Positions 2,993 through 29,437 of a stretch of DNA of 40,524 nt are shown piece by piece (within the stretch, counting starts at the first letter, position 1; every line of letters begins with the position of its first letter). The stretch is from a virus, in IMG/VR virus record IMGVR_UViG_3300022602_000204, positions 1 to 40,524 of that record, one strand, 5' to 3'. The notes under the pieces were generated by a model. That model worked only from the letters and a program-made list of their open reading frames with translations. It was not told where the DNA came from and did not search any database. Position numbers and translations under genes: made by a program.

Positions 2993-3880
2993 ATGAAAAA
3001 CTTATCAGAACAAACATACTTAGACGCATTAAAGAATATTCTAGAAAATGGCGAAGAGCGCCCTGATAGAACAGGAGTAGGCACCATTGGGCTTTTTGGT
3101 ATTCAAATGAGATTTGATTTAAGCAAAGGCTTTCCTGCCATTACTACAAAAAAGCTAGCGTGGAAATCTTGTGTAAGTGAACTGTTATGGTTTATCGAAG
3201 GCAGTGGTGACGAAAATCGTTTGAAAGAAATTCTACACGGTGATCGATATAGTGAAAAGAAAACTATTTGGTCTGATAATGCGAGTGCGGATTATTGGGT
3301 AAAAAAACGCTTACAAAGACACCCAGGAGATCTAGGTCGAGTCTATGGTGTACAGTGGCGTAGATGGCGTAAACCGTTAGTCCGTATCAACAAGGTTGTA
3401 TTACAAAATCACGATCAACTATTAGAATTAATCGCAGGCATTAAGTCAGATCCTTACAGCCGTCGACATATTATTAGTGCGTGGAATCCCGGAGAAATAG
3501 ATCTAATGGCATTACCTCCCTGTCATATGATGGCACAATTTCATGTTAGTAACGGAAAATTGAGTTGCCATATGTACCAGCGCAGTGCCGATATGTTTTT
3601 AGGTGTACCATTTAACATTGCGTCTTATGCGTTGTTTACTCATATGATTGCTCAAGTATGTAATTTAGATGTAGGCGATTTGATTATTAGTTTCGGCGAT
3701 GCTCATATCTATAAAAATCATATCGATCAAGTTAAAGAGCAATTAAGCCGTAAACCTTTTGCTATGCCAAATTTACAACTTAATCCTGCTATCGATGTTA
3801 TTACTAATTTTAGTATGGAAGATATCGAATTAAAAGGGTATGAAAGTTACGAAGCTATTAAAGCGCCAATGGCCGTTTAA
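2993..3880 (+). CDS. thyA: Thymidylate synthase (ThyA family)
   Basis: The enzyme makes dTMP from dUMP with methylenetetrahydrofolate, supplying thymidine for phage DNA synthesis in the cytoplasm. The 295-residue length is close to T4 td (286) and a little longer than E. coli ThyA (264). Conserved residues are visible: Arg26 in the phosphate loop, SELLWFIEGS (62-71), Trp93, the RR pair at 157-158 that reaches across the dimer, catalytic Cys177 in LPPCHMM, QRSADMFLGVPFN (196-208), DAHIYKNH (236-243) and the C-terminal KAPMAV. All appear intact, so it should be active. No strong ribosome site precedes the ATG; a hairpin lies at 2952-2974. Its stop codon overlaps the stop of the convergent tail gene. 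Confidence 0.97.
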   Translation: MKNLSEQTYLDALKNILENGEERPDRTGVGTIGLFGIQMRFDLSKGFPAITTKKLAWKSCVSELLWFIEGSGDENRLKEILHGDRYSEKKTIWSDNASADYWVKKRLQRHPGDLGRVYGVQWRRWRKPLVRINKVVLQNHDQLLELIAGIKSDPYSRRHIISAWNPGEIDLMALPPCHMMAQFHVSNGKLSCHMYQRSADMFLGVPFNIASYALFTHMIAQVCNLDVGDLIISFGDAHIYKNHIDQVKEQLSRKPFAMPNLQLNPAIDVITNFSMEDIELKGYESYEAIKAPMAV

Positions 3881-5085
3881 ATTACAAGAACTTCAATCAT
3901 ACTAGAATAACCAATGTGATTTTCTAATGCTTTGGCAACAACAGCATTAGGATCATCACCGGGTTTAAATGCTTCAGCATGTTCAGGGAATGTGCTACTT
4001 ACAAGCAAGTCGCCCTTATTAATTAGACCAGTAACTTTACATAATACTCGACCACGCAATGCTACATACGGATGTGTACGGTCATCACCGGCATCTGAGT
4101 TCATTCTAAACGCAGGATTCTGAGATATTATACCAATTACTCTAGTATCTGCGTGTTGGTTTGTAGATGTTATTTCAGCATCACCTCCAATAACAACTAC
4201 AGATCCAATACTATAGAATTTATCAGTAGCATATCTTTCAGCTAAATCGGCGTACGATGCTTGAGACGCCGTAACGTTTAACACATTAGTCGAAGCATTA
4301 TAACTCAATGAATGATTACCTGATAATTGAGTACTGTTACTAGATGTACTAGCAAGAGGCAAGTAATACGTTCCGGATACTGTATTTGTAATTTTAACGT
4401 TGGTAGCAGTTGTAGCAGTAACAGCAACTAAAGATTCTGCCGCTGTTCCCCAGAAATAATAACCGTTAGCCCTAGTAGATCCGTTAACATCAGCACCAGC
4501 TAATGTTATTCCTTGTTGTACACCATTAGAAAAATTACCATTTAATAGTGAAGTAGTCTTCGGTGTAAACTCGCTGTTATCTGAAATAGTTGCCACAGGA
4601 GTAGAACCTATATTTGCTGTTAATACAGGTATTATTACACTATTATCAGAAGTTGGAGATTCGTTTGACGATGTCCAAGCACCAGATGCTGTACTAGATA
4701 CACTAGGTCCGATTAATATGTAATTAGTTCCATTAAATCCGTACAATTGTTGACTTTGAGAATTCCACCAAAAGTCTCCAGAAATAGAAGATTGAGGAGT
4801 AGTTGACTGTACATATAGATTTGCTAAACTTTTAAAATTGCTACCATCATAACATACATTTAATGTTTTACTTGCGCTATTAAACCATAACTCTCCTTGT
4901 ATAGGATTACTAGGTGGAGTAGTGTTAGAAAAATTTTCTAACAGCTTAATAAAATTTTCATTAACAGGATCTCCATATCCTGAATAATTTCTACCTACTA
5001 AAAATAAATCAGTAGTTGTGTCCAACGAAGCATCGTTAACTGTAGTTAAAGTTGTTCCATTAGTTTTTGTTAAAATATAAGGCAT
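3877..5085 (-). CDS. Tail fibre/baseplate-associated structural protein, paralogue A
   Basis: This 402-residue protein is the last gene of the late operon and one of four tandem paralogues. The N-terminal module (about 1-130) contains LFLVGRNYSGYG, NENFIKLLENF, PIQGELWFN, GDFWWN and ILIGPS. The middle is Ser/Thr/Asn-rich beta-structure typical of phage fibre shafts. The C-terminal domain (about the last 125 residues) starts at YADLAERY and contains IGIISQNPAFRMNS and VALRGRVLCKV; it matches the C-terminus of paralogue B. From memory, similar C-terminal domains occur in fibre proteins of marine phages. It is likely a trimeric virion fibre or host-contact component. A GGA-type ribosome site lies upstream of ATG 5085. 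Its stop overlaps that of thyA. Confidence 0.75.
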   Translation of the reverse strand: MPYILTKTNGTTLTTVNDASLDTTTDLFLVGRNYSGYGDPVNENFIKLLENFSNTTPPSNPIQGELWFNSASKTLNVCYDGSNFKSLANLYVQSTTPQSSISGDFWWNSQSQQLYGFNGTNYILIGPSVSSTASGAWTSSNESPTSDNSVIIPVLTANIGSTPVATISDNSEFTPKTTSLLNGNFSNGVQQGITLAGADVNGSTRANGYYFWGTAAESLVAVTATTATNVKITNTVSGTYYLPLASTSSNSTQLSGNHSLSYNASTNVLNVTASQASYADLAERYATDKFYSIGSVVVIGGDAEITSTNQHADTRVIGIISQNPAFRMNSDAGDDRTHPYVALRGRVLCKVTGLINKGDLLVSSTFPEHAEAFKPGDDPNAVVAKALENHIGYSSMIEVLVI

Positions 5086-9345: not shown

Positions 9346-11004
9346 TTAAGACCCGTATCTAAAAATCCTAGGACGAGGCCAAACTGCTCCGCTAGCTGGT
9401 CTGTTATGCATATTAGATTTCGGATATACATTGCCCGAATTAAGTCTTTCCTGAACGTAATAAAGATATCTATTAGGAGCGCCTTGTAACCAATAAAGAT
9501 CAGGAAATGGCGTTCCAGAATCAGTTAATTGGTTAGTAGTTGATACACTTTTAATGTAGGATAAAATTGTAGTAGCAGTTAATCCGGGATAAGTTTCCAA
9601 TGCGCAAGCGAGAACTCCTGTTACTTGAGGACTTGCCATGCTGGTTCCAGAATCTATTTGAATATTGTAGGAACTGTTTCTTGGATCAATTACAGGACTT
9701 TGCCCTCCTCCATTTGTATATGTATTATTCCATGCGCTTGTAATATAATCACCGGGTGCCCAAATATTAATTCTAGTACCGCAACAACTGTAGTCTGCTT
9801 TTTTTTCTATAACAAGGGATCCTGCTGATCCAACACAAATAACATTATCTGCCGCACCGGGTGTGTCTCCTTGATTATACAAATAATTTGATCCATTTGA
9901 GGTTAGGTAATTATTGTAATCTTGTTGTGTTGATAAAAAAATACCTTCATACGAATTACCGGCAGCGGATACAATAATTATACCGTCATCTATAGCACTT
10001 TGAATATCAACTTCTGTAGGAGAAAATCTCGCAGGAGCAGTTACATTTAAATTATCATCACTAAAAAGACCGTAAGAGTTTATTGTAGATCCAGTAAACG
10101 GTCCGTTAATTGTTGTTCCTCGATATGTTATTGAAGAAATACTGTTAATAGGAATAGTACTGCCTATTCCCCAACTACAGTTAACAATTGTAGGATTTTG
10201 ACGACCTGTTTTAGGATTTATAGGTTTAGTTTGATGCCATGCCCTAATGTAATCAAACACATAAGTAGCGGCATTAGGATTTGGATTTGTATCGTATGGG
10301 CTTATATTATATATAGTAGCATTTCTAGCCCATCCTTGTGAATTACCGCATGCAATTCCTGCTACATGACATCCATGATTGTTATCATCGATAGCATTTT
10401 GATTATTAGGATCAGTGTAAGGAGTATAGACATAATTGCCCACTGCTCCACCGGTTACAGTAGGATTTTGTAAAAACCAATTATATTCATTTTTTCTACT
10501 ACCTCCTGTACCGTCTGCGTTAACAGCAAACTCAGGATGATCAGGAATAAAATGTCCGTCACAAATTACAACATCAACATACAGCCCTCCAGAATTAAGG
10601 GAAACATTTCCAGAAGCTTCTGTAGTACCGTTTGTCCCCCAACCCGATATAGTTTGACCATTTGTTACCCTTAATAATCCCCAATTTTTTGACTGGCTAG
10701 TAATATTAAAATTTTTTGTCCAATTATTAGAATGCTCTAAAGATTTTCTTACTACCGTAAGCCCCGAGTCTACCATGTTAAGTGTAACCGCATACACCCG
10801 AGGATCATTCCTTACTATTGATGCTTCATCATCAGTAAGCATGTAATGAGTATTTTTACTTATCGGTCTTCTTGCACAACATTCTACTGCTCTACTAGGA
10901 AGAGCAGAGAATATACCTGTACCAATATTTTCTATATCGTTGTATAGACTATCTAAATCATTAAAATCTTTAACTGATACAATATATTCTCTTACATTAC
11001 TCAT
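9346..11004 (-). CDS. Subtilisin-like serine protease (S8 family)
   Basis: This 552-residue protein carries a complete subtilase triad: Asp149 in VVICDGHF, His210 in NNHGCHVAGIA, and Ser455 in SGTSMASPQVTG, with the oxyanion Asn350 in SAAGNS. Residues 1-80 (EYIVSVKDF, then HYMLTDDEASIVRNDPRVYA) resemble an I9-type propeptide. The C-terminus (RPASGAVWPRPRIFRYGS) is extra to the catalytic domain. There is no signal peptide, so it probably acts in the virion or infected cell. It lies between the collagen-like fibre and a conserved structural gene in the late operon, which suggests a virion-associated protease for host surface proteins or a processing enzyme for tail proteins. The substrate is unknown. 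A TTGGAA ribosome site precedes ATG 11004. Confidence 0.93.
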   Translation of the reverse strand: MSNVREYIVSVKDFNDLDSLYNDIENIGTGIFSALPSRAVECCARRPISKNTHYMLTDDEASIVRNDPRVYAVTLNMVDSGLTVVRKSLEHSNNWTKNFNITSQSKNWGLLRVTNGQTISGWGTNGTTEASGNVSLNSGGLYVDVVICDGHFIPDHPEFAVNADGTGGSRKNEYNWFLQNPTVTGGAVGNYVYTPYTDPNNQNAIDDNNHGCHVAGIACGNSQGWARNATIYNISPYDTNPNPNAATYVFDYIRAWHQTKPINPKTGRQNPTIVNCSWGIGSTIPINSISSITYRGTTINGPFTGSTINSYGLFSDDNLNVTAPARFSPTEVDIQSAIDDGIIIVSAAGNSYEGIFLSTQQDYNNYLTSNGSNYLYNQGDTPGAADNVICVGSAGSLVIEKKADYSCCGTRINIWAPGDYITSAWNNTYTNGGGQSPVIDPRNSSYNIQIDSGTSMASPQVTGVLACALETYPGLTATTILSYIKSVSTTNQLTDSGTPFPDLYWLQGAPNRYLYYVQERLNSGNVYPKSNMHNRPASGAVWPRPRIFRYGS

Positions 11005-11008
11005 AATA

Positions 11009-12229
11009 TTATTCCAATGGTAAAACTTTGAGCGATACTAAGACAGATGCTGTAGACAATCCTAGATTAGTTACTGCGGCATATATATTAGTTGATGTTG
11101 TTGCATCATTATTAAATCCAATTACACCAGGGCTAATTAGTTGAGAATAAGAACTTGTAGTAATAATTTCCGCCAATACGCCACTACCCGGAGTAGGATC
11201 ATTTCCTTGTCCACGAGATGCGTCATTTGTCCTAGAAACAGTATCAGTATACAATCTTACCCACGAAGCAGTTGATACACTAATATTATAAAGAGCGTAT
11301 GATTTAAATCCCGCAATTGTAATATTAGCAGTTACGTTATTTGGAATCGACGGAGTAGTACCGGAAATAATAACTCTCGATGAAGTAACACCGGCTCCAG
11401 AAGGACCAGAAGGACCAGTTGGTCCAGCAATACCCGAAGGACCGGTAGGGCCTTGTGGACCACCGGATGGACCAATGGGACCAGTAGGACCAGTTGGTCC
11501 TATAACAGTTACACCACTAGGACCACTTGGTCCACTAGGACCTCGTTGTCCGGCAGGGCCTTGCGGACCTTCAGGACCAGTAGGACCGCTGGGTCCGTCA
11601 GATCCGGGATTACCTGTATTTCCTTGAACACCTTGTGGTCCTTGCGGACCTTGTGGACCTCCTGCTGGACCAGGATCTCCAGTTATTCCAACAGGACCGC
11701 TTGGACCAGTAGGACCGCTCGGACCAGTAGGACCAGCAACATTGCTTACACCGCTTGGACCTTGTGGACCACTAGGACCAGTAGGACCAATTTGTCCAGG
11801 ATTGCCTATTGCTCCGCTAGGGCCTTGTGGTCCGGGCACATTACTAACTCCGCTAGGGCCACTGGGACCTTGTGGACCTTGTGGTCCAGGAACATTACTT
11901 ACACCACTAGGACCAGGAACACCTACACCCGTCGGTCCGGAAGGACCTTGTGGTCCAGTAAATCCTTGATAACCTTGTGCTCCAATTGGTCCAGTTGGAC
12001 CTTGTGGTCCAGGAACTGTACTGCTAGAGCCCGGAGTACCGTTTATTCCGGCAGGTCCAGTAGGACCAATTGGACCTTGTGGGCCGCTTGGACCCACGGA
12101 GATGATTTCAGAAATTTGAGATTGTAACTCGCTGAAATTTAATCTCCGTGTTAATAAATTATCAACAACTATAAAATACGTACCATTTGTAGCTGTGTTA
12201 ATTACTGGTAATTGTGTTACTTGTGTCAT
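11009..12229 (-). CDS. Collagen-like fibre protein
   Basis: The 406-residue protein has three parts. An N-terminal head (1-45, [20 protein letters not shown] and [12 protein letters not shown]) resembles attachment domains of other phage collagen-like proteins. A Gly-X-Y rod spans about 46-280, rich in GPQ, GPS and GPT triplets. A globular C-terminal domain of about 126 residues contains [23 protein letters not shown] and ending LKVLPLE, a composition typical of trimeric fibre tips. It should form a triple-helical fibre without hydroxyproline. The rod has regularly placed interruptions (finding below). Ribosome site AGAAGGA precedes ATG 12229. The gene starts one base after the giant protein gene ends. 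Confidence 0.9.
11390..12094 (-). repeat. Gly-X-Y collagen-like repeat region
   Basis: About 235 codons of nine-base triplet repeats encode the collagen-like rod. On the plus strand it shows as repeated GGACCA/GGTCCA units. Longer units are repeated too: GPSGVSNV occurs three times. Such DNA is prone to length change by slippage. The antisense open frames across it are a by-product of the repeat. Confidence 0.9.
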
Positions 12230-12230
12230 T

Positions 12231-15200
12231 TTATATTCCTTCTAACGGATTTCCTTGGTTGTCTGTTAATACTAGACCACTATCTGTAGTTAACATTGGA
12301 TCTCCGCCGTAATAATATACATCAGGTAATTCAGCGGGTCTTGCTTGTAAAAATAATGCAGGTGGCTTCGAACTATTCATTAAAGATATAGTAGTGTTAC
12401 TATTTACTTCATCATTCCAAACTGTGTCTCTAGCAAATTCTTTCTTGACTACTGTTAATTTTATACCGCTTTGAACACCGTCTAACAAATTCAAAGTCAA
12501 CGCTTGTGTAGCAGTAGTAATGGTATATTCTGGAGGAATATACTGTAATCCTTTATATACAAATCCGTTAATAGATCCAACATCAACTGCATTTGTTTGT
12601 ACCCATACTTTATTAGTATCGGCAGTGATATATGCTGTACCTAATGGAGAATCAGAAGGTAATAACGCAGAAGTTGAAGTAGTTAATAAAGTATCAAACT
12701 CTTGACTATCATAAGACAAAGTAATATCTTGTTGTAACATTCCTGCTTTTCTCAATCTTCTACCGCCATAATAAACTTCAACTTGATCAACTGCGTTAAC
12801 AGCAGGCATAGGATCATTATACGGTGTACCAACTGGATTAGATTGTAAGATAATCCCATGACTTATATTATAACTCGATGTGTTAATAGAGTATGATGTA
12901 GTAGCAGTGCTAATAATGTAAGTGTTAACTCCTGCTGTAGTTAATTGGCTTTGGCTATATACATTTTCCGAGAACGGTACTGTTTGTTCAGGACTTTGGT
13001 CAATAACTTTAGTATTAATTTCTAGATAGTAGGAAGGACTTGTACCTAATGTAGCTCTACGCAATTGACTTAATACATTTCCATTTAGTTTGTAAAACTC
13101 AATACGTTCGCCTTCAATAATTACAACACCTGGAAGTTTTTTACTCACTAGCGGAGGTGTTAATACTGAAGAATCTGCTACATATATTTCAGTATCTGTA
13201 AATTTTAACGGTTGTGTTAAGTATGTTGTATTTTGTTTACTTAAACGTTTAAATGATGTTCTGTTAAAAATATCATTAAAAATTCTATATCCAAGAATAG
13301 TAGTTGCTAAAACAGTATCACTTATACTCATTATTTCAACAATATCAGTAGATTGAATAATAACGTTATCAGCAATTTGTACTGTAACACCGTCATCTAA
13401 CATGACATATTGAATATCTCGTATTAAAGGAATACCGTTTACACGAACCCATACATAATTGTCATTTAGTGTAGGTCTGCTAATCTTAAATCTTCCATTA
13501 GAATTTCCAGGGAATCTTTCAGTTCTAATTAACATACTATCTTGATCAGTATACGTAATTACTTTAATTAACGACTGGGTTGTTTGCTGTTGTGCTAAAA
13601 TTAGTGTTGATCCAACAATATTATAATCCCAACCACCGTCAGGTAATGATAATACAGCAATAACATCACCATTGGTAATTAATCCAGTTGTAAGAGTAAT
13701 GTTAGCGTTAATAGAGTCGACTGTAAAATCAAATCCAGGATTTAAAGCAGTACCATTAATATATACACTTACATTAGATACATTAAATGCTCCAAATGGC
13801 CATGCGGTTTTATTATCAATAGCATACGTTAATGTAGATGGGTTAGTAACTGTGTAATAACTCACTGGAGGAGAATTTAAAATCTTCCATCCTAATCCAT
13901 TATCATTAAGTTCAACAATTGCCTGTGCGGCAGCAGGTTCAATATTTCCCGGAGGATTTGATAAAGTAAATGTATACTGAGGGCTTCCACCGACTATAAA
14001 ATCTTGTTCTCGTATTTCATTAAAATATTGATATTCGGTTCCGAAGAACCAAGCCAGCACATAATTTGATCCAGCTGGCATATTATAAACAACAACAGCG
14101 GCCTCACTTTCTGTAGATGAAACTGGACCTAATTCATACCAACACGTTGTATCCGCTAATCCAATCGTTGTTAAATTGTAACCTAAAGTTTGTCTAGGAA
14201 CCCAAACACCGTTAACATAAACACTAGCAGTATTAACGTTGCCAATAGAAGAACCGCTTCGTACTTCCCCAACAGTTTCGCCGCTAGTAAACGATACACC
14301 AGAACTATCTATTACTCCAGCTTCGGCACCAAATTGTGATCCACCTACACTAACAATAGTATAACCAACAAGAGGGTTATTATTAGCGTTTGATTGTGGG
14401 CTAACAAGAATGTTATTATTTCCCCAATCAATTGTGAAATACTGAGAGTCAACAGATGATAAGAACGATGTTGAAGAAGAATACTGGAAAATTATCCCGT
14501 TATAAACTACCATAATACTAGGAATGCTAGTAGGAGCAATAGCCAATGTACTAGTTGTTATAGTATTTGTTGATACGGCAAATGATCCAGAGAATACTAA
14601 AGGTGCGCCTGATACATTCTTTGTATAAACATTAATAGCAAGAGAATCAGCAGTCTGTCCAGGAATTAATTCTTCAGGAGCAAATCCTTGATCACTAGAT
14701 AAAAATGCGCCTCCATCAAAGTTAATATCTTCCGGATTTACACCTAACGCATTTACTAATGTTACACCAGTATCCGAACTTCCCCATGTGCCGCCGTCTA
14801 TAACACTATCGAGTGAACTTGTATTAGAGTCAATTGACCAAAATTCAAATTTTTCTCCAACAACAATTGCTTGACTAAATGTACTATTAAATGTTACTTG
14901 AGATAAAGTACTATTAATACCAATAACTGAAATATCTTGTGTTATAGTCGAAACACTAAACTTGTCTGTTGTAGTACTAATAATATTAACTAACTGTCCT
15001 ACTGATATACCAGTAGTTGTACTTAATGTAATTGTATTTGTTCCTATAGACGCTGTTGATGTTGCTGTTATTAGGGTATAATAATTCACATCAGTATCCC
15101 ATTGAGAAATACCGTATGTTCCAGTATTGACTCCCCAAACAGTTGTATAATCAAAAGGTAATGATTCGATAATTGTTCCAGGATAATCAATTCCTGTCAT

Positions 15201-18200
15201 TAATTGCCCAATATCTATTCCAGGCATACCAGAAGTAGGATTATAATAATTTAATATCCTGTCAACTGCATTAAACAACTCAATATTTTTATTATAAGTT
15301 ATTGTTAATAGTTTATATTGCGTAGGAACATAATTTAAAAATATTAATTTACAAAATTTCTTATTATATCCATTATATTCTTCTGTATAATACTGTATTG
15401 TATAATCAGATGTTAATACATAAGTTCCATCAAGAGTAACAGTTATTGTGCTCTTATCAGGAGTTGCTAACCAAGATAAAACAAATTCAGTTTCTGATCC
15501 ATTACATACAAATTCGTCAACATATTGTGTTGAATTAATTTGAGATACAGAACTTGTTCTATCAAATTTAATACCAATTTGATTTGAACGAACTTTGTTG
15601 TTTGTTAATTGAGCATACGCAGTTGCCTGTACCAGACTACTGTTTCCAGCCGAATGTAAAATAACAGACGGAGGTTGCGTATATCCACTACCAGGATTAG
15701 TAACTATAACTTGACTAACTTTTCCAGAAGTAATATATGCCTGAGCAGTAGCGCCTGAACCGTTGTCGCTAGGTGCTGACACTATTTCTACAATAGGAGG
15801 AATAACATAATTTGCTCCGGGATTTCCAACAGATATACTACCAATTTCAAAAGTATAATTATCGGCCCAAGATTTCCAAGGATAAGAATTTAATAACGAA
15901 CTATTAATATCAATAGTTTGATACATACCAGTTTGCGTATTATAAATCGAAGGTAAATCAAAATCAGTTATATAAGATTGTGTCGGATCTACTACTGTTC
16001 TATTTGTAGTAAAACTTCTAATTTGTGTATGATAAGGTTTAACTTCTGACAAATAATCTTCGTAATAAGAAGTATCTTGTAATTTATAAACAGGCGGTTG
16101 TGTTAATTCTCCTGAATAATTTACTACATTAATGAACGAAGTTTTAAATGCCCAATCTAATAATTTTTGTTCTGATAAAGCATACTTAACTGCCTTGAAG
16201 AAGAACAAATTCCAATTAATTTTTAAATCAAGAACAAACAAGTCATTTCTTAGTGCTGAAAGAATATACCCTAATTCAATATCAGGTGTCTGATCGTATA
16301 GTGTTTGATCATAAGAATTTCCACTATCAAAATTTAAAGTTCCACTTATAGAATTCCAAATATTATCTAATAATTGAATTGTTCCATTTTGTTTGTATAC
16401 CAAATTAAAATTAGTGTCAAACGTTCCAACGGCACCTGCGCTTGTATCGATTTGTTCTAATATAATATAGTTTCCGTCACCGCCATTTTTAACTTTTACA
16501 TATTCTCCTATTTGTAAATTAGGTAATGTGAATAAATCATAGACAGCATCAACAGTATATGTATAATCTATATAAGGATTGTAATCTGTACTTTCCCAAT
16601 CAATATATTTCCAATAAAGGGTTGTATTATATTTTTGTGTATGAGCTCTATCCCATCTTGATAAATTAGAATTCCAAACAAATTCTGCCCATTTATTATT
16701 ATAGGTACTGTCAACTAAAACAATAACAGTATATGGTCTAACTGTTAAAGAAGGAGCAGTGTCATAACCAGCTCCTGGATTTTCAATTGTAACATTAACT
16801 AATTGACCTAATGAATTTATTTCTGTAGAAATAACAGCAGGCACATCAGACGTTCCACTTACTATTACGTTAGGAGATATTAAATATCCATAACCTGGAT
16901 TTTCAATTGCAACACTTCTTACCTTGCCGTTATACATTGTACATTGTATAGTTGCCTGAACAAACTGTAATGTATTGATTAAACTTAACTGTTCATTATC
17001 TTCGACTATTTGATCATATTCGTGTAAAGAAACATCTGGAGGTAATTCTTGTTGATTTAAATTTGTAAATGAATAATTTCCAGTAATTTGATTTTCAGCC
17101 AATACTAAATTAGAAAATTCAATTAAATTTCTCAATGCTTCTTTTCTATTAACAAACATAGACTGTCTAGGTCTAATCTCAATACCGTAAGCCATTCTGC
17201 TTGATAAAGCTGGATCAGGTACAGGATTTCCTAAGCTGTCATGGCCTAATAAACTATCAAACAATTTTTTCTCTAATAGTGTATTAGGTACACTAGTAGC
17301 TGACCCTTCTTGTAATAATAACCATTCTGTATGTTTTTCTATAGGATTATTAATTATATCAGTAGCAACATTTAAATTAATTCTATTACCTACTAATAAA
17401 TTTCCTACATTTGCTAAGGATACAGCATTTTTAGATAACACAGATGCGTATAAGTATCCATAACTTGTAGGATCAGCAATTAAACTAGATACTTGATAAG
17501 CACTAATTCTTCTATTCTTAACGTTAGGTATTGTAACTTTATTTTTAACCCAATAGTAATAATAATTGCTGAAAGAATTTGTTACAGGACTGTATATTTG
17601 TTTAACGCTAATAACACTATTATCAGCATACTTAGGTTGTCCACTTATACCTTCAGTGAGACCCGCTGAAGTATCTGCCTGAGAACTCCATTCGCTAGGC
17701 AAGTATTCAGAGCCTACCCATTCGTAAACATCAATAGTAGCTCCTGGGAATATTTGTCCCCAATTACTTCTACGATACTCTAATTCTCCTTGTTCGTACC
17801 AGAAATATTTTACTGTACTTAGATCCCACCATAGTTCACCAACATGGTCATCTAACCAATTAGTGTTGGTATCAACTACAGTACCAGATACGCCTATAGA
17901 ATATACAGCAGGATCTGAAGCTGATTTATATCTTATTTCTTCTTGAGCAAGCCCCGGTAATTTACCTTTAACTGGATCTATTACATCAAGATACTCAACA
18001 ATTTGTTCATTAAATGTATCTACTAATTTTACTGACTGGAATTGAGTTATATCAACTAAATCATCTTGGCTTCTCAAAGTTTCCCAGCTGTCAGCATTTA
18101 CATTAATCTTAGAAAATTGATAAAAAGATGAAATAGTATCCCCATCAATAGCAGGTGCTCCAACATATATATTTTGATCAATAGTAACGCTTGTACCATA

Positions 18201-21200
18201 ATAAGATCCAGAAGATTGTAAATCTGGGGACAAAGAATCCGCTAAATGGAAATTGCCGTTTGTAGATTTCTTTACATATATGTACGCAGTACCTGCGTTT
18301 TCAACAGAATCAGTGAATACTGTAGAGCTAGAATCTTCAGTAGTTCTATCTTTATCAAAAATAGTTTTAACAGAATAATCATACCCTACTGAACCAATTA
18401 CTAACGTATTACTTAATGTATTAATATCAATAGATCGGCCAAATTTCATACCAGCACCAGGCAATGGATTTGATATAATCTGAGTCAATGTAAACGATCC
18501 GTCTGAAGAAGTTGTGTAAATTGCTACTTTGCCAAACGATTGGTCTTCATTACGAAGTTCTGGTGCTGTAATGACCAAATAATCTCCTTTTGGTGAGATC
18601 GCCATAGCTTCACCAAATCTTGCGTTAGGCAACCCAAAAGGTGATTCAATAATTTGAGAAATTAAAGATAAATTTGAACCTGTATATATTGATACAAATC
18701 CTACTCCGTTATTCCAATTAGGCGCACTAACAGCAATTTTCTCTGCGTTGTTAGATCCTTCTATACTATAACCCCATTGGTCTCCTGCTTGAGTTCTAGG
18801 ATTCAAAATTTCTATACCAGTTGTACCAGTATGAACATTTATAATAGACGAAGTAGCATCTACAATATATGAATAAACATTGCCACCAAATGTTGATGTA
18901 GTCAAGGAAGGAGCCCCTACTAATAATATTTTAGTAGAAGTACTTTGTTGAGCATATATTGAAGAACCAAATCGTTGATTATCAAACGGATCAGGACTTA
19001 ATAGTACATACGTGCTTGTTCCTTCTTCGAATAAAATAGGATCAACGCTACTAATTTTTACAAGTCCCTCTTGTGCATAAGACGATGCTATTCCTGTACC
19101 GGTTGAGTGTCTTACTCCACCGAGCGGAGCAGTCGACGACGTAGAAATTACATTACTTGTACCCGGAGCTCCTGCGAATATTAATCCATAGCCAGTTTGA
19201 TTAAAATTAAAATTATCGTAAGCAATGGCAGAACCAAATTCAGTAGAATTACCTACAGTATAATACTTTAAACTCGTATCTTTATTGCTATTAATAGTAT
19301 AACTAAATTGGAATTGAATTCCATTTGTTGATTCGTTATAAACAAATACTCGACCTAAGTCTTGATTTTTTTCGTAACTAGTAGCACCAACAATTAAAGT
19401 ACTATCACCTTTTTGTTTATATACAGTTTTACCTAAACTTTGATTACTTATTTGTGAAGAAGCAACAATAGAACTAGAAGAATAATTATTAATCTTTTGA
19501 TAAACTGCCCAACGGCCAGTTCCATCGTTGTCTACCCACAATTTAGAACCATAAGGTAACGACAACAATTTAGTGTCAGACGGAATAGCTTCAAATGTCG
19601 GAAATCTATAACTCTTAAATTCAAACATTAATCCCGGTCCTGGGGTGGCTGTAGCAATAGATCCCAAATTCGTAGATACAGTGAAGCTAGTTAATGAAGG
19701 AATAGATGTAATCTTATAAACACCATTAACCTGATCATCAAATTGTGTTATTGAAACAATCGATCCTACAGATAAATTATGAAAGTGATCAGTAGTGAAT
19801 GTTAATTGAGATAACGGTATACTTACATACACACCAATTACATTAGAGCCGTTCTTTTCGTAGCGAACAACATCCCATTCACCGTTTGATTTAAATCCTA
19901 TCCAAATAGTATTTCCAACAGAAATATTACTATTATTAGCAATATCTAAAATACTATTTTCATTATATGCCGTTGAATCAACATCATCAATTCTAACATA
20001 CCCAGCAGTGTTTAATTGTAAATCATTATCATAATACGTACCAGAGTTGGTAGAAAATATAATATCAGGATTAAAGTTTGTAGGAGTTATTACTACGTCA
20101 GACGGTAATATATAATTAACTAAATCATTAGAATTAGAAGGCTTTGAAGAAACAACACTAAGAATTTGAGGATTCTCAATAAATGTACCTTCTGCTAAAG
20201 GAAATTCTATTTCTTGATATGTTTGATAAGATCCGTAGTTACCAACACGGAACGCCCATTCTTCAGTATAATCAATTTGTCCTTGTAAATTGTTAATAGT
20301 CGCTTTAGCTAATTTACTAATAGAATTTTTTGTGCCTTTTTCTTTAATATAACCTTGATAAAATTTATATTGAGCAATAGGATCAGTAAAGATGTTATTT
20401 AGGTAAACACGAGGAGTATACCCAATTAAATGCTGTGCCATTTTTTGTTGTCCAGCATCAAAATTATCAATGTCTAAACTATAGAAATCTTCAAATTGAT
20501 TAATTTTGTAATCAAAATTTGGAATTAAATCTGCTACAGGTTTAGATCCTAACAAAATCCATCCATCAGATGTATTAAAACTTTCTGATCCTGATATGTT
20601 GTTAGCGGCAGAATAATAATTACTGTTAAATTTTACAACTGATCCATAATTATAATCAATATATTGTTGCCAATTACTAATTATTGCTTCGTCGTAGACA
20701 AACCCTGGACTGAATAAATCGCCTTCCCAATTAGACGTTCTAAATCCAACTAATTTCATTCTTAGCTGTCTGTATCCTGTCTCAATATCAAAAATTGTAT
20801 CATTGAAAATAGTAGAATTATTAAACACCATTGCGTGTTCTTTTTGTACAGAATTTAATTGAGCAAAATAAATTCCTTCTGTTGTACCAATAGTATTAAT
20901 AGTACAAACTCCAGTTTGTCTATTAACATTTAAATTGTGTTGCGGGAACGGTTTTCCATTAGCAGTTAAAATACTATATTCATAAAAACTGTTGAATATA
21001 TTATCAACTACAGAATTAGGTAAACTAAATTTAATTTGATCAGCAAAAGGACTTAATGTAATAATACTATTATCTGCCCAATTTTGTGTTGTCCAATATA
21101 AAAATTCTTTAGCACTAAAATTCCAATCTATTAAAGAATTTAAATCAGGATTAAACTCATCAAATATAAATCCTTGATTAATTAACCACTGGCCATATCC

Positions 21201-24200
21201 AATAATAAAATCATAAACTTCTTGTAAAGTCGAAAATGCCGTACCGTATGATACTTGAGTAACTTCTTTGCTAAATTGACCAACTGTCTGAACTGTTACT
21301 CCTCCTATAATAGGAAGAGAAGGTAGTATAGCAAATAGAGTAGGATCAAAGTTTGTGCCTGATCTATGACTAACTTTAACTCTATAATATCTATTTCCAT
21401 AAAGAACAATTTGACCTGCTTGGTAAAATACTCCAGTCGTAGACGAAACTGCTGTTGTAGTATCAACTTCAGATAGTCCGGTGTTGCCAGATGACGAACT
21501 AGCAGTCCATACTATATAAGGTTCTGATACTCCACCTACAGTAATTGCCGGCGTTGTTGAATTTCTACTAGGTTGATAAACATTAAAATACGGATTGTAT
21601 TTGTCGTAACCTTTAACAATAAATTCTCCGTTAGATTTTTGTATAATAATTCCGCTTATACCAACTGAACTAACAGGATTACTTACATTTAAAAATAGCT
21701 GGTAATCTTCTTGTGGCAATAATGCCCCAGGACTTGTAGAAGTAGGATCATACGCATCAATAATAATTTGTATTTTATTCTTGCTAACAAATCCGCCAAC
21801 TTTGTGGAATAATCTTAAATCAAGATAAGATAAATCATTTTGAAGAGTTGTTAGATACCCACTACTTCTTTGCTGGCCAATTTCAGAAATATAAACACTG
21901 TATCCGCTAGTAAGCGTATTTTTGTCTGAGAATACTATTAAATTTTTAGGATTTAAAAATTCATAATCACTACCGTACGTCCATTGTCCGCTAATGTTTA
22001 AATTCATTCTTGATGTATCATACATCAAAGCAGTATATGAAGCAGGCTTAACTAACGCTAAAAGTCTTTGAAGAGCAAAAGGATAATAACTACTTCTTCT
22101 CCAAGCAGTTTCAACTGGCCCTTGGTCTCCAAACACAAATGAGTTTCGTCGACTAAAAAGTGTTATATTTTCTACTAAGAAAGTATCTGGATTTTTTAAA
22201 TTACCGTTTTGATCAACTGGTAAAATTTTACTTAGACCAGGACGAGCATAGAAAGGATTTACTCCAGCAGTTGGGCCATCAGCAATCATACCCGCTTCTA
22301 TATCTCCCCATAGGATATCATTCCCTGACGTATAAGGAGCAGGACCATATTGAGCGGTCCACCATTCTGGTTGTTCAGTAAATCCTAACATTTCCCATGG
22401 TGTAAGATGAGGAGTGTCTGTATCATAGAAATATCTATAAACATTTCTCCAATATCCATTTACACTTACACCTAATGTATTATTATACCCGCCTGTGTAG
22501 TTCCATGTAAATGAATTAGTATCGTCCACTGAATCGTTTTTAGAATAATCGATTCCAAACAACCCTGCCCATTTTATAAAATCTCTTTCTAAAACTTCAT
22601 TGATTTCAGTATATGTATAATCACTATTCCTAAATGCGCCAGGTAGGATAGAATGAATATCAAATAGTTCAGGTCTATATAAAACTTTGATATTATTATA
22701 AATTCTTGTTTCGAGTTCTAAAATTATTTGATCTCTATAATCATTATAAGCAATGGTGATACTACCGTCATGTCCTCGTATTACAGACTGTGGTCCTGAA
22801 ATATAAGTATCATCGACATAAATTTCTGGAACATATTTAGGATATAATCCTAATTTTGTAGGAGTAGGCGGAACATAGCATCCTTCTGTGCTATAATAAT
22901 CTTTAACTTCAATAGCATCTCCAACATTTAGTGTAACTAAAAATTCAATTGAAGAATCATTCGAAATAAAAATATAATCTCTACCATTTATTAATTGATT
23001 ACCATTTAGATAAACTAGCACAGATCGTAAACTTAATGATGTAAGATTAAAATCTGAACTAATAGGGTATACTGTGTTTCGTGTACTTGTTACTGTCCAT
23101 GTTCTAGTTGTCGTATCTTGTCCATAAGCAACCATGTCAGATAAAGAATATGAAGAAGTACCTTGTTTATTTTTATTCAATTCTGTTAATACAGTATCAA
23201 CCGCGCTTACATAATCTGTTTGATTTGATAATAATGACAGTTGTTTTAAAAACTGCATTTTAAATTCGTTGTATTGATCGCCTGCTTTTTGTATAGCATC
23301 AACAACATTATGTTCTTTGTTTCCAATAAAGAAACTAGGAAATACCATAGAATTAGCATTTGAAATTAATCGTGTTCCATATTTTGAAGGATTTGGAATA
23401 TCTCTCAAATTATTAATGCCTTGCGAATTTCCTGTAAAATCACTATCTCGGTTAATCATGGTATTAACATGATCAGTTATTTCCGACAATGTGAATGTAG
23501 GGATAGGACCATTCAGTGGGTTATTTGTAAGCCCTAACGGAACATCATATACTCCATTAGGAGTTGGAATCTGATAAGGTTCTGCTTGTTGCCATACATT
23601 AAAGTATTCATTTCCTATTTTTAAATAAGTTATACCTGTGGAAATGTTAATCAAAGTTTGATCTGACTGAGATATAGAAATAGTATCTGTAGTAAAATAA
23701 TTTTTAAAAAGATAACTACCTACGCCTACACTATTTTGATATTGTAAAGGAAATCCTAATATAGGATCATTTGTGCCAGTTGGAGCAATATCATAACCAA
23801 AGATTTTATTTCCTAAGAAACTGGAAGAATAAACAGTAGTATCGCTGTAACTTTGTCCTTGGTTATCAAATAAATCGAACAACGGAGATTGATTTAAAGT
23901 AGTATGTTGTTGAGAGTATACCCAAGAAACTCCGTTGTACCACCAAGATGTTCCTGAATTTACAGTCCCTTTATCAATTATAATAGATGATTTATATAAA
24001 GGAATACTGTCAACTGTTGGATTTAATTTAAGAACAGATTTACCATTTACTGTTACAAATGTAACTTCATAGACTCTGCCTTTTATTAATTCATCAACGT
24101 CAGCATTAAAAATAACCCTATGACCTTGTTCTAATAGTACACCGTCTATATGGTATCCAAATGAGCCTTCAACTGTCTTAAATGCGTCAAGTGTAGTTGT

Positions 24201-25490
24201 ATCAATTAAATCTACTGTCGGAGCCGATGTTGTACCAAAATTATACAGTTGTATATCAGCTTTAAATTCAATAATTGGTCGTTGAGCTCTCTTATCAGAA
24301 GGATACACTGGTTGAGTGCCATTTAATTCCGCGCTCAAAGTGATTACATCGTGATGTACCCATCTATTATATCGAGACCAAGGATTTAAATCTTGACTGC
24401 CTCGATTAATTGTAATATATTCTGGTGTGATAGGTAATTGTTTAAATGTATCAAAAGGATAATCATCAAACAATGTAGCATCAAAATTATCATCAAATTG
24501 ATTTGACATAACTTGTGTAGCAGATAGTGATTCATAATCAACTAACCGAATTGCTGTTCCAACTCCTTCGACAAAAAAATCTTTATTTTGATAGTAAGCA
24601 GGCCTAACATCCCCGTCAAATCTAATTTTCATCCCATTTGATAATGTAACACCATTTCCTGATGTATATGTTTTCTTACCAACAATAGATAAATCTACAT
24701 CTATATAAGAATTCTCGTCAACAAATCTAATTAAAATCTCTCCATGATTTACTGATAGGTCATCAGTCGCATAGTATAACGTAGAAGGAGTACTAGCATC
24801 AACAGTAAATGTAATTACTCCAGTTGATGTTCCATTATTAATAACACCGTTATATAAATCTCCATTTCCTAAACTAGGAGAAGTTTTGATATAAAAATTG
24901 TTAGAAGAATTAACTTCAAAATAATATGTATTCCCTCTATATAATTTTATAAGAGGATTAGGTGTTAATCCATCAGGAGTTAAAATAAAAGCAGAATTTA
25001 AACCGTTATCGGATACAATATATGTACTAGTTGTATCTTGTTCTTGTCCTGTTATAACTATAGTTTCTGGGCCTGTTGTTAACCAATAGTATTCTTGATA
25101 GTTAACAAACTTATCCCAATCAATATGAGGATCATAAGAATAAAAATTTGATCTATATAAACGATCAAAATTATTATCTATTCCTCCCTGAACTATTATT
25201 TCATTTGACAAGTCATCAATACCGATAGCTTTTTTGATGTTACCTGTATTGTCATTAATAATTAATGCTGGCTCTAGTTCATAATTTCTTCGTATATCAG
25301 AGCCTTGAGATATGTATACATCAGAAGTTGAATACGTAACAGTAGCAGTAGTGCCGATATATCCGTCGATTCTTTCTAACTGAGGAGGTTGTATAAGTTG
25401 ATCAAGTGTACTAGATAAAAATTTTGAGTTTTTATCAGTTCTGAAAAACTCGGGCAATAGGTTTACTGATTTAATACTGTTGTTTGCCAT
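12231..25490 (-). CDS. Giant tail/baseplate structural protein, 4419 residues
   Basis: This single intact frame takes one third of the window. It follows gp6, where T4 has gp7, so it may be a baseplate wedge or peripheral baseplate protein; that is inference. Visible parts: a conserved-looking N-terminus ([17 protein letters not shown] at about 121-137), a cupredoxin-like beta-domain (183-255), an alpha/beta stretch with [18 protein letters not shown], a seven-blade FG-GAP beta-propeller (about 2029-2459), two pairs of GYG/GSGY-xPP repeats (about 2867-2925 and 3225-3270), [10 protein letters not shown] near 3152, several repeated NG..L..G.DY modules in the last 1500 residues, and a C-terminal [15 protein letters not shown]. 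Tyr, Asn, Ser and Thr are abundant and Cys is rare. The start is two bases after the gp6 stop, with GGAAG upstream. Confidence 0.9.
18112..19405 (-). repeat. Seven-fold FG-GAP (integrin-alpha-type) repeat region within the giant protein
   Basis: Seven units fit the pattern FG.S(I/V)....., a hydrophobic strand, (V/A)GAP or equivalent, then G.V.(I/V)Y. Examples are [56 protein letters not shown] and [10 protein letters not shown]. Seven blades is the number in integrin alpha propellers. Units are spaced about 55-75 residues, as expected. Confidence 0.75.
24726..24944 (-). other. Cupredoxin-like domain (metal ligands apparently lost) in the giant protein
   Basis: Residues about 183-255 read [19 protein letters not shown], then [18 protein letters not shown], then TLYYATDD and NHGEILI. 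The order of strands matches the cupredoxin-like domain found in structural proteins of marine phages. In those, His and Cys ligands occur after the V..S and YY strands; here those positions are Asn and Ala, so copper binding is unlikely. Confidence 0.5.
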
Positions 25491-25492
25491 TA

Positions 25493-28400
25493 TTAGCTTC
25501 CGCTGTTAGTAATTATAAATTGTGTGTTTAATTGAGATGCTGTAATTGCGTCTATAATTTCAATGTTATCAACTGTAGCACCGCTTATAAAAATTTCGTT
25601 ACTTAAACAAGTAACTTCATATAAACTTCCAAAATTGTTAACTTGAGGAACAATTACAAAATTTGTAATATTAGGAGTTAGTGTATTCATTACATACGTT
25701 GACAATTCACTAAAATTAAATGTTTGTCCGAAGTCCCAATTTTCTAAAGCAAAGAAATTATTAATAGCATTTAAAATTTGTGTTTTTAAATCGTTATCAC
25801 TAGTAGGTATAGAAGAATTTCTCACCGCTTTAAAAGTTGCTTGTAAGTTAATAGGTGCTTGACTTCCAAATAATACTTTATATTTTACAGGTTGAAATAT
25901 AATTTCATCACTTATAGTTTTAATTGGTTCTAGTTTCGATGAATAACTAGATTCAAGACTTTGACTTGTAGGAGATTGTGGTTCTGTTCCAGATCCTGTA
26001 GATAACCAATTCCTATAAGCAGTGTCATAAGACGATGTTAATAAGTAAACATCCATAATGTTACTCTTACTAGGGTCTATTCGACGATCTTCTCCACTAT
26101 TATGAATATAGTGAAATTTTAAATCTGATCTACCAGGATAAGCAAAATAGCTTGATTGATAAACCCAAGGTGTTCCGTTGTAGTATCCAGATAATGAAAA
26201 ACTCTTAACAACATTTTCAGAAGGATCATAAAAATAATATAATGACCCATCATCCGGTAACGATAAAGGATTTAGTGTAACATTAGATTCTGTAGGATAA
26301 GCAGTGAATAATGAACCATCAACTAACTGATATCGTAACCCGTCGGACATTTTTTGAAAATAAACAAATTTATCTTCATATCCTGTTGACGAATTTGTTG
26401 AAGTAGGAGAAACAATGTTATCAAAAGTGTCAGGATCAGAAATTTGTCCCGCATTGTTATAATCATATAAACTTACTTTAACTTTAGCAGGATTAATATA
26501 ACCGTCTGGCTCGATGACAGGATTATCAATTTGCCATAAGTAGTCTTTTCCTAAACTTAAAGAGCTTGTTGTATTAAGTGTATTATAAGATAAAACAGTG
26601 ACCTGATCTTTAATAACTGAATCAGTTGTATAATCATAATTAATGCTGTTTGGATCTATATAAAAAGCAGTTTCTGCCACGCTTTCAAAAATATAATCAG
26701 TTATTCTGTATCGAACATTATAACCAATACCAGTCCATGTAAAAGAAATCATCCAACTTGCATCTCTATTTGAATTTGTTATATCATTTTGATAAACTAA
26801 ACTAAACGGATTGTTAAGATCAATGTTAGAATCTGTTATAATATTCCATACTCGATTGGTAGAATCAAAACTTAAACCAAAGTTTTTTTGACTTAACGCT
26901 AAATTTACTAAATCAGTTTCAAACGCATAAGACAATACGTTAGCAAACTTAGGAATAATTTCTGTAGGAATAGGTAATATTTGATTTCCACTATTATCAG
27001 TAGTACCAGATACAATGTTGCTTAATATAACAGGACCAGTTCCATCCGATAAAGCACCTAATCCTGAATTATTACCGTCGCCGATAACCTGAAGAATAGT
27101 AGACCAAATGTAACTTGAAGTATTTTTCCCAGGAGTATTAACTAACGTGCCTGTACTTGAAAAATAATATCCTGTTGGGGCAACAAATTTTACTAATGCT
27201 CCTGTTGAAACATAAGATAAATTGCTAGAAGAAAATAGTCCCACACTTTGCGATTGTATATTACTAGTAGTAGGATCTATAACTTGAAAGTATCCCCTTG
27301 ACTGACCAGAGACTTTATTAACTTGAACCCATGTTAAATTTAAAGAAGATAAATCAGGTCTACCATATTGATCAAAATAGAAAGACCTTAAACTAGGAGA
27401 AGAAATAACAGGTTCTACTTGTTTTTTAATAATAGACCAAATATCATTCTTATTTGTAAATGTAAATTCAAAATTTTCTTCACCAATATTTTTATAGATA
27501 ATTCCGTCAGACGCAAAAATATTTGTTTTACTATATTTTCCACTAACATCACTTAAATCAAAATACTTACTTAAACCGCTAGAAATTCTATTAATAGATT
27601 TTGATTTTAATATATCACTGCCTAATGTTAAAGGAGCAATATTATAATCCTCAGCAGTTACCATACGATTTTGTGTATAATATGCTTGTGGTGCTTTAGT
27701 TTGTATGCTAGTGTTTGTTTCTGCGCCAGCACTATTACTCACTGTATATTGTAAGCCCATGGTCACTGTTAAAGTTTGACCTTGACCGATTTTATTTGTA
27801 TAAGGAATTTCAATAACAATTCCACTCATTTGATCAGGCTTAATTGTATAAGTTAATCCATTACTTTGTCTATACAATAATACAAATTGTCCTTTTGGTA
27901 AATTTCCAAAACTACCGTCGGCAAAATTTAAATCAATCTGATCTTGATCTCTTGATGTAATACTATAAATGTTTCTCTGATTAGAATTTAAACTATTATA
28001 GATAATGTTATTGCCAGTAGTGCTTTGTACTTTATCCCATAATATAGAATAATTTCCGCTAGCATCTAATTGCCACAACCATACATCAGTATCATTAATA
28101 TTAGGAGTATTAACTCCTATAATTTCATTAGGTACTGGATTAGTAATATTAAAATTAGCCAATCCTAGTGTACCTTGTCGGAATTGTATAAAAAATCCTG
28201 TATTACTACTACCAGACCCTTGATTGTCATTTTGATATACAAATCCAAATGTATTAGCTGGCTTAGGAGCTTCTTCGTATACAGAAGATGCTCCACTAAA
28301 AGAAGAACTAACAATTTCAAAGTTCATGTTAATTCCGTTAACCGGTTTTAAAAAACTATATACCGGCACATCTGTATTAGAGCTGTTAATTCTATATTGT

Positions 28401-28951
28401 TCTGTTAAAATTCCATTAATGGTTGATCGATCATACGGTTTGCCAAAAGCAAACGATCCTGCCATTGAAGAATTTAATATTGTAATAAACTGTTGATACC
28501 AATTTGTATTTGTAGGGTCATTCCAGCTAATAGTACTATTGGCCAAATTTATACCATTGGCATCAATAATATTATCAGTAGTAGAAATCGCTGTAACTTT
28601 TAAAAACCCATTAGCAGGAACATTTCGAGTAGGAGCGTAACTAATTAACTGGGCAAGCCTTAAAATACTATCTCGTCGAGTTGCTGTTTCTAAAAAGTTT
28701 TCACGAGCATTTAAATCTATACGAAAACTTAAATTTTGCCCCATATAGGCAATAAGATCGATTAGAGCAATATATTCGCTACTGTCAATAAAATCATTAA
28801 AATCTTCAGGGTAATTTTGCTGAAGATAAGTGATCATTGTACGACGCAATGTTTCAAAATCATAGCTTTGAAAATCTGCGTTACGGTAGCTTTGATAGAT
28901 TTTTTTCCAATCTTCAGCTACTAATAATTTGTTGTTTGTTGAAGGAATCAT
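25493..28951 (-). CDS. 6: Baseplate wedge subunit (gp6-like)
   Basis: gp6 joins neighbouring wedges into the hexameric baseplate ring. The N-terminal part matches the T4-type family well: DWKKIYQSYRNADFQSYDF, NYPEDFNDFIDSSEYIALID and AYMGQNLSFRIDLNARENFL (about 15-90). A second landmark, RMVTAEDYNIAPL, lies near residue 430. The protein is 1152 residues, much longer than T4 gp6 (660), with added beta-rich segments in the second half. It follows gp25, as in the order of cyanophages, and overlaps the giant gene region by a two-base gap. No strong ribosome site precedes ATG 28951; an AATAAATA motif lies 17 bases upstream. Confidence 0.87.
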   Translation of the reverse strand: MIPSTNNKLLVAEDWKKIYQSYRNADFQSYDFETLRRTMITYLQQNYPEDFNDFIDSSEYIALIDLIAYMGQNLSFRIDLNARENFLETATRRDSILRLAQLISYAPTRNVPANGFLKVTAISTTDNIIDANGINLANSTISWNDPTNTNWYQQFITILNSSMAGSFAFGKPYDRSTINGILTEQYRINSSNTDVPVYSFLKPVNGINMNFEIVSSSFSGASSVYEEAPKPANTFGFVYQNDNQGSGSSNTGFFIQFRQGTLGLANFNITNPVPNEIIGVNTPNINDTDVWLWQLDASGNYSILWDKVQSTTGNNIIYNSLNSNQRNIYSITSRDQDQIDLNFADGSFGNLPKGQFVLLYRQSNGLTYTIKPDQMSGIVIEIPYTNKIGQGQTLTVTMGLQYTVSNSAGAETNTSIQTKAPQAYYTQNRMVTAEDYNIAPLTLGSDILKSKSINRISSGLSKYFDLSDVSGKYSKTNIFASDGIIYKNIGEENFEFTFTNKNDIWSIIKKQVEPVISSPSLRSFYFDQYGRPDLSSLNLTWVQVNKVSGQSRGYFQVIDPTTSNIQSQSVGLFSSSNLSYVSTGALVKFVAPTGYYFSSTGTLVNTPGKNTSSYIWSTILQVIGDGNNSGLGALSDGTGPVILSNIVSGTTDNSGNQILPIPTEIIPKFANVLSYAFETDLVNLALSQKNFGLSFDSTNRVWNIITDSNIDLNNPFSLVYQNDITNSNRDASWMISFTWTGIGYNVRYRITDYIFESVAETAFYIDPNSINYDYTTDSVIKDQVTVLSYNTLNTTSSLSLGKDYLWQIDNPVIEPDGYINPAKVKVSLYDYNNAGQISDPDTFDNIVSPTSTNSSTGYEDKFVYFQKMSDGLRYQLVDGSLFTAYPTESNVTLNPLSLPDDGSLYYFYDPSENVVKSFSLSGYYNGTPWVYQSSYFAYPGRSDLKFHYIHNSGEDRRIDPSKSNIMDVYLLTSSYDTAYRNWLSTGSGTEPQSPTSQSLESSYSSKLEPIKTISDEIIFQPVKYKVLFGSQAPINLQATFKAVRNSSIPTSDNDLKTQILNAINNFFALENWDFGQTFNFSELSTYVMNTLTPNITNFVIVPQVNNFGSLYEVTCLSNEIFISGATVDNIEIIDAITASQLNTQFIITNSGS

Positions 28952-28958
28952 AATGTTC

Positions 28959-28999
28959 TAATATACCATATTTATTGTAAAAATTATCCTGGTATATTA
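28959..28999 (-). promoter_or_regulatory. Inverted repeat with late-promoter-like motif between genes 25 and 6
   Basis: TAATATACC (28959-28967) and its perfect reverse complement GGTATATTA (28991-28999) flank a 23-base loop. The right arm includes the gp25 stop codon. The minus-strand motif AATAAATA (28969-28976) is inside the loop, 17 bases from the gp6 start. It could be a late promoter, an RNA processing stem, or chance in AT-rich DNA. Confidence 0.4.
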
Positions 29000-29437
29000 T
29001 TGCACTGTTAGGCCAATTTCTTGATCAAACTGTAGTCTTAAACTAGCACTTTGATCAGTTCCTTTTAATAACAGAGTTAATTCTAAAATATACCCTTGCT
29101 CGTATTCGACTAAATTTATTTGCAATGGTGTAACACGAGGATCGAAATTACAAATAGCAGTTACATCATCTTGTAATGCTGTACGCACATCATCAGTTAA
29201 CGGTTCCATTAATAAATCCCAAATGATTGTCCCAAATGTTGGATTCATTAAACGTTCGCCCTTCCTAGTATTGAAATTGTTAATGATGTCTTGTTGTATT
29301 AACGCAAAATCATACAATCTACTACCAAAGTTAGTGTTGTCCTGAGAACTAAATCCTTTATAGAACTGGCTTTGCTGTGTAGCCGCTTGAGCTAACGCAG
29401 TATTTGAGTTTCCGATTTCAATGTTTTTATATGGCAT
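28997..29437 (-). CDS. 25: Baseplate wedge subunit (gp25-like, GPW/gp25 family)
   Basis: gp25 is a small wedge protein that helps fasten gp6 and the sheath-initiating surface of the baseplate. The 146-residue protein has the family core: DFALIQQDIINNFNTRKGER, LMNPTFGTIIWDLLMEPL, and the C-terminal NLVEYEQGYILELTLLLKGT strand region. The KGERLMNP(x)FG(x)xxW motif is the usual signature. Despite the old database label, it is not a lysozyme. No Shine-Dalgarno sequence is visible; AATAAATA ends 5 bases before the ATG. It lies directly after the gp5-like gene. Confidence 0.92.
   Translation of the reverse strand: MPYKNIEIGNSNTALAQAATQQSQFYKGFSSQDNTNFGSRLYDFALIQQDIINNFNTRKGERLMNPTFGTIIWDLLMEPLTDDVRTALQDDVTAICNFDPRVTPLQINLVEYEQGYILELTLLLKGTDQSASLRLQFDQEIGLTVQ

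Follow-up and report, generated by a model that had tools for sequence, protein, structure and literature searches.

This study recognized a seven-bladed FG-GAP (integrin-type) beta-propeller inside a giant baseplate-associated protein encoded by a 40.5-kb virus record, IMG/VR IMGVR_UViG_3300022602_000204. Positions 1-40,524 of that record make up the window, by which we mean the whole stretch of DNA that was analysed. The giant virion protein has 4419 amino acids (12231..25490, minus strand), and the propeller lies at residues ~2017-2479 (18054..19442, minus strand), where PF14312, AlphaFold2, the Foldseek search of PDB and a profile match to integrin alpha-4 all identify it. A preliminary description of this DNA had proposed such a propeller within a giant tail protein, a proposal which the family profile, the predicted structure and the structural search now support. 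The propeller seems to interrupt a conserved beta-hairpin, and we read it, with some reserve, as a ligand-binding part of the baseplate.

The seven-bladed propeller

Seven FG-GAP units were located on the minus strand, each starting with a motif of the form F/W/Y/L-G-x-[STA]-[IVLMA], at residues 2019, 2085, 2174, 2239, 2292, 2350 and 2431 of the giant. The same motif is met once only elsewhere in the 4419 residues (residue 1006), and when the 468-residue stretch was shuffled 10,000 times, a mean of 0.58 starts and a maximum of 5 were obtained, never seven. Unit 1 covers residues 2018-2082 (19245..19439; LGKTV...VGAT...GRVFVY) and has predicted strands, and unit 2, with a long loop, covers residues 2083-2171 (18978..19244; FGSAI...AGAP...GLVKIS). 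They are followed by unit 3 at residues 2172-2236 (18783..18977; FGSSI...VGAP...GNVYSY), unit 4 at 2237-2289 (18624..18782; WGYSI...VSAP...GFVSIY) and unit 5 at 2290-2347 (18450..18623; FGEAM...ITAP...GKVAIY). Again, a long loop is found in unit 6, residues 2348-2428 (18207..18449; FGRSI...IGSV...GTAYIY), and unit 7 closes the series at residues 2429-2479 (18054..18206; YGTSV...VGAP...SSFYQF). The units are 51 to 89 residues long and the individual repeats are weak. A (V/I)GAP-like turn and a G.V.(I/V)Y strand had been claimed for every unit, and the pattern is indeed present, but an exact 'GAP' turn is confined to units 2, 3 and 7 (GAT, SAP, TAP and GSV stand in units 1, 4, 5 and 6), and units 2, 6 and 7 have a degenerate strand.

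When excised, the domain matched the Pfam family FG-GAP_2 (PF14312) at E 1.1e-7, with 32.4 bits against the curated cut-off of 23, though the Pfam scan of the full-length 4419-residue protein misses the propeller that the excised-domain scan recovers. The same family matches 18 of the 22 homologous domains (E < 0.01). An AlphaFold2 model, built on 22 sequences with a query carrying about 100 flanking residues, reached a mean predicted local distance difference test score (pLDDT) of 79.9, mostly 75-95, and a predicted template-modelling score of 0.84, and its strands group as 7 x 4. In the Foldseek comparison with PDB, integrin alpha chains made up the whole of the best 50 matches (lowest E 1.4e-14, probability 1.00). 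Template-modelling scores were ~0.50 when scaled to the query and reached 0.65 when scaled to the target, and the alignment ran full-length to integrin heads. Since the model aligns full-length with closed integrin rings, the seven-bladed ring is predicted to be closed as in integrin alpha. A profile of the relatives also matched integrin alpha-4 among the PDB sequences at E 2.9e-10, integrins being the only family with significant matches; this profile was needed, as a single-sequence phmmer search against PDB returned nothing real. The strands of the propeller were repeated in a larger, 941-residue context model. Start motifs, shuffles, family profile, predicted fold and fold search hence bear out the seven FG-GAP-like units and the integrin likeness that the preliminary description had put forward. 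Its limits of 2029-2459 were right as to place, but cut off one strand at either end, the first in blade 1 and the last in blade 7.

Apparent insertion into a conserved hairpin of the giant

Two scans of IMG/VR yielded 46 related loci, of which those with open frames mostly encode giants of 4244-5756 residues. In relatives of about 4200-4800 residues the propeller begins near residue 1885-2115, and in the distant members L048, L050, L052 and L054 the blades are recognisable with longer inserts between them. No relatives were obtained from the bacterial genome contigs searched. A tblastn search with the backbone of the giant (residues ~1000-1830) matched 57 isolate records, including Pseudomonas PA5oct-like, Klebsiella RaK2-like and E. 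coli 121Q-like phages, those of Erwinia, Salmonella and others, as well as Agrobacterium Atu_ph07, Sinorhizobium Phosso and Salicola SCTP-2. Gene order is shared by PA5oct, Atu_ph07, Phosso, RaK2, 121Q, GAP32, XaC1 and Vibrio 2.275.O, and in the isolate regions read the gene just before the giant is gp6-like, or else a large one takes that position, and ahead of it stands a gp25-like gene or a small neighbour. On its homologous backbone and this gene order, the giant belongs to the RaK2/PA5oct/Atu_ph07 virion-protein family.

The propeller was absent from nine of nine isolate homologues in a core-profile search. RaK2 gp465, PA5oct gp355, Atu_ph07 AUZ94962, Phosso 294 and SCTP-2 gp140 stand in the same slot where annotated, with a backbone identity of ~23-38%, but have no propeller and carry ~100-1500 other residues between these anchors. 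A propeller match in Phosso from the first GenBank search (H1) was rejected as a homologue, H1 being a separate FG-GAP giant and 294 the true, propeller-less one.

The site itself is flanked by two short strands. The N-terminal arm is RWAVYQK, residues 1993-1999 (19494..19514, minus strand), which is nearly invariant in 22 relatives, and the C-terminal arm is SWETLR, residues 2468-2473 (18072..18089, minus strand), whose counterpart adjoins the first arm in four propeller-less relatives. The window reads GRWAVYQK, about 470 residues, and SWETLRSQ. In PA5oct, Atu_ph07, Phosso and SCTP-2, a W(A/K/R)V strand adjoins a W..(L/I)R or equivalent strand with no propeller between, the adjoining arms being NRWAVYYFNSGKWNLDYK in SCTP-2, AKWKVKEFTKVINGDDWNTIREE in Atu_ph07, GWRVLERMDSIDGAIWQEIRQE in Phosso and DWAVAVVSGSTITNIRSRQ in PA5oct. 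The second arm (W..LR) was matched firmly by BLAST, and the short first arm by eye, except in SCTP-2, where it was BLAST-aligned. Homology resumes at residue 2451 for PA5oct, 2458 for Atu_ph07, 2465 for SCTP-2, 2469 for Phosso and ~2500 for the RaK2-like phages, which keep ~100 residues between anchors that stand 580 apart in the window (1918 and 2500). Because the flanking strands adjoin in four relatives, the propeller looks inserted into the turn of a hairpin that the WAVYQK and SWETLR strands would form; judging from these alignments, the turn may have received the propeller here or other lines may have lost it, the relationships being unrooted.

Upstream of the same hairpin, PA5oct has ~270 residues, whereas Atu_ph07 and Phosso have ~1500, which include other domains of baseplate type. 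We put forward only tentatively that the hairpin turn and its neighbourhood might be a general socket in the giants of RaK2-, PA5oct- and Atu_ph07-related jumbo phages, into which lineage-specific binding modules are plugged. Its contents might then be the FG-GAP propeller here, a LamG-like module (by eye) in SCTP-2, a long multi-domain stretch in Atu_ph07 and Phosso, and little or nothing in the RaK2-like phages. If this were true, host tropism of jumbo phages would evolve partly through module swaps in a core baseplate protein and not through fibres alone. The LamG-like reading of the SCTP-2 insert was unconfirmed by Pfam or PDB sequence searches.

Divergence and the proposed role

Averaged over 12 relatives, identity to the window sequence was 0.34 for the propeller, compared with 0.55 for residues 646-1814 and 0.61 for residues 2475-2800; the C-terminal part (3500-4419) gave 0.36. 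Within the propeller it was lower in loops (0.28) than in strands (0.41). Inserts in propeller loops were noticed in the relatives L038, L032, L023, L035 and L013, measuring ~280 residues in blade 5 of L038, ~100 residues in L023 and ~80 in L035, while L032 holds two. Towards its C-terminal end, the L038 insert (giant residues ~2275-2555) has a match to phrog_773 (E 4.9e-10) and a weak one to a lectin (E 0.13), and a PA14-like reading of the insert made by eye was unconfirmed by Pfam or PDB sequence searches. Between L031 and L051, third-position divergence falls to 0.01-0.15 over giant residues 2249-2447 (window numbering) versus ~0.32 elsewhere, and this low-divergence tract suggests recombination inside the propeller. 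The ratio of nonsynonymous to synonymous substitution (dN/dS) of the propeller ranged from 0.04 to 0.20 in seven close pairs, never near 1, and exceeded that of the backbone in several of them (0.081 vs 0.027; 0.140 vs 0.057).

We consider it probable, though well short of certain, that the propeller is an exposed, lineage-specific ligand-binding module on the baseplate, inserted in the hairpin turn of the giant and acting in adsorption. A complete FG-GAP propeller (~470 residues) would be seated in the turn of the conserved beta-hairpin and, as a closed propeller has its N and C termini near each other, the hairpin could hold it as a plug in a socket with the backbone undisturbed. The propeller would project from the baseplate, and its loops and occasional extra domains would touch a ligand during adsorption, most likely a host cell-surface glycan or protein. 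Since the insertion spot is empty or otherwise filled in related phages, the propeller is probably an exchangeable surface-binding part. The binding role is indirectly supported because related phages appear, from the homologous proteins, to assemble without the propeller, and because it diverges more quickly than the backbone and has loops that accept inserted domains.

Several points weigh against a ligand-binding module. DxDGD-type calcium loops are missing from the window domain and the motif was seen in one of 22 homologues, none being conserved, so that a metal-dependent, integrin-like mode of ligand binding is not supported. Positive selection on the propeller, which the preliminary description had named as worth looking for, is rejected by the dN/dS values, which leave no sign of an arms race, and the faster divergence could also reflect weaker constraint. 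Receptor binding could in truth fall to the products of the neighbouring fibre genes, of the collagen-like and collar-domain types. The flanks of the context model fall below pLDDT 50, a low confidence that leaves the orientation relative to the baseplate not fixed in the prediction. That the propeller is exposed on this virion, binds a ligand and acts in adsorption is what we infer, as is the geometry of the hairpin.

The main rival is that the propeller is architectural, contacting neighbouring wedge proteins or holding a fibre with no host contact. Its position in the middle of the giant and not at an end, the purifying selection throughout, and its retention across the whole sampled clade, including the divergent L048, L050, L052 and L054, are in keeping with such a part. 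However, nine isolate homologues make virions without it, and it is among the fastest-diverging parts, with loops that take large insertions, unlike a buried interface; we therefore regard an architectural role as unlikely, though deserving serious attention. Still less probable is a general adhesive, by which the phage would be anchored loosely to extracellular polymers or matrix and not to a specific receptor. Loose anchoring of this kind has previously been proposed for immunoglobulin-like phage domains. A sub-threshold CBM5/12-like motif elsewhere in the giant and in homologues, and the LamG-like stretch near the same position in SCTP-2, point in that direction, but the CBM match is under the Pfam cut-off in all three proteins, and the SCTP-2 insert has no Pfam match. 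It is scarcely credible that chance or low complexity produced the repeats, or that they form another type of propeller. Though the degenerate units of unequal length and the negative full-length Pfam scan would fit a chance pattern, seven units were reached in 0 of 10,000 shuffles and FG-GAP_2 recurs in the homologues, while in PDB integrins alone reach significance with the profile and take the leading places in the fold search; on these grounds the pattern and the other propeller type were both refuted. A ligand-binding module stays the reading that we prefer.

Gene neighbourhood and comparison with known systems

The open reading frame of the giant is real, matching phrog_10938 in PHROG at E~0, and lies directly downstream of the genes for gp25 and gp6. 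The gp6-like baseplate wedge subunit (1152 residues; 25493..28951, minus strand) matches the baseplate wedge family phrog_10646 at E 1.2e-279 and phrog_219 at E 9e-22, and the gp25-like baseplate wedge gene (28997..29437, minus strand) matches PF04965 at E 3e-11. The window holds, in order, gp53-like, gp5-like (Phage_base_V), gp25-like, gp6-like and giant genes, compared with gp53-5-6-7-8 in T4, after which come a collagen-like fibre gene, a subtilase gene and one for a tail-collar protein. The giant thus occupies the slot after gp6 that gp7 fills in T4. Homology to T4 gp7 was undetected by hhalign of giant residues 1-640 and 640-1830, and homology of the backbone to T4 gp10 was likewise undetected, so that 'gp7-like' is a statement on gene order only. 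The record of the PA5oct homologue gp355 carries an electrospray-ionization tandem mass spectrometry (ESI-MS/MS) note, and this together with gene order supports the giant as a large baseplate wedge-associated virion protein. For Atu_ph07, most predicted structural proteins are reported to have been confirmed by ESI-MS/MS, a statement on the set as a whole (PMC6102473). The close relative L010 sits on a 322-kb contig, and the source phage, which is uncultured, is therefore probably a jumbo myovirus with T4-like baseplate genes.

Directly after the giant comes a collagen-repeat tail fibre gene (11009-12229, minus strand), a candidate for the actual receptor-binding fibre, and among the tail-fibre genes lies a subtilase (Peptidase_S8, E 1.8e-25; 9346-11004, minus strand). 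Phosso, too, encodes an S8 peptidase near its FG-GAP giants. Within the giant, a CBM5/12-like motif of the chitin-binding type was noticed at residues 1353-1380 (21351-21434, minus strand; E 0.044), and it recurs in the Atu_ph07 (E 1.5e-4) and PA5oct (E 1.1e-3) homologues, all below the Pfam cut-off; a second such stretch was seen by eye near residues 1618-1650. Repeated PGxGY-type small domains at residues ~2851-2925 and ~3212-3302 match phrog_460, whose name 'head closure Hc2' is probably misleading for them, and PA5oct, Atu_ph07 and Phosso have domains of this kind at their variable site.

Viral FG-GAP repeats, jumbo-phage FG-GAP proteins and propellers in the adsorption proteins of phages are all already known or annotated. 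Our viral library search brought up many giant-virus and phage proteins with FG-GAP, among them a virion protein of cyanophage S-TIM5 and the Atu_ph07 'hemagglutinin' AUZ95081 (393 residues), whose FG-GAP likeness reached 95.7% probability and E 1e-8 in hhalign and whose jumbo phage also has a baseplate giant. Phosso (PV764938) encodes two giants of 3692 and 3162 residues with dozens of FG-GAP_2 units, annotated as hypothetical (57900-68978 and 48338-57826; L055 and L067), and two FG-GAP reading frames of ~400 residues near 92-94 kb. AUZ95081 and the Phosso FG-GAP proteins are separate genes, whereas the window propeller sits inside the wedge-associated giant. No description of an integrin-type ring inside a baseplate giant, at a hairpin turn uninterrupted in cultured relatives, was found in the open-access papers searched.

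Receptor-binding parts are usually sought in separate fibre or spike genes at tail ends, and the baseplate giant is a possible second place encoding host contact, whose empty site in cultured relatives gives a precise target for expression and deletion. Among phage propellers at or near the host-contact apparatus, the phi11 receptor-binding protein Gp45 is five-bladed with a cavity that could take N-acetylglucosamine, PRD1 P2 is a five-bladed propeller among host-contact proteins, and phiKZ gp131C (4GBF) is a seven-bladed propeller at the baseplate edge, of unconfirmed function and not described as FG-GAP (PMC4901313). The window domain has seven blades compared with five in Gp45 and P2, and none of the three was retrieved by sequence with the relatives' profile in the PDB search. 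With the Pfam FG-GAP_2 (PF14312) proteins the domain shares the family match and differs in being inserted in a giant virion protein. Its closest likeness is to the integrin alpha propeller (PDB 6om1, 4um9, 3v4p and others), which serves integrins in ligand binding and is the best fold match in PDB, with which it shares seven four-stranded FG-GAP blades at ~12-18% identity. The phage domain differs from it in lacking conserved DxDGD loops and in being an insertion, flanked by conserved virion-protein backbone where integrins have Ig-like thigh and calf domains, a membrane anchor and a beta partner. Integrin cell adhesion is the setting from which FG-GAP is best known; here the fold occurs within the infection machinery of a bacterial virus.

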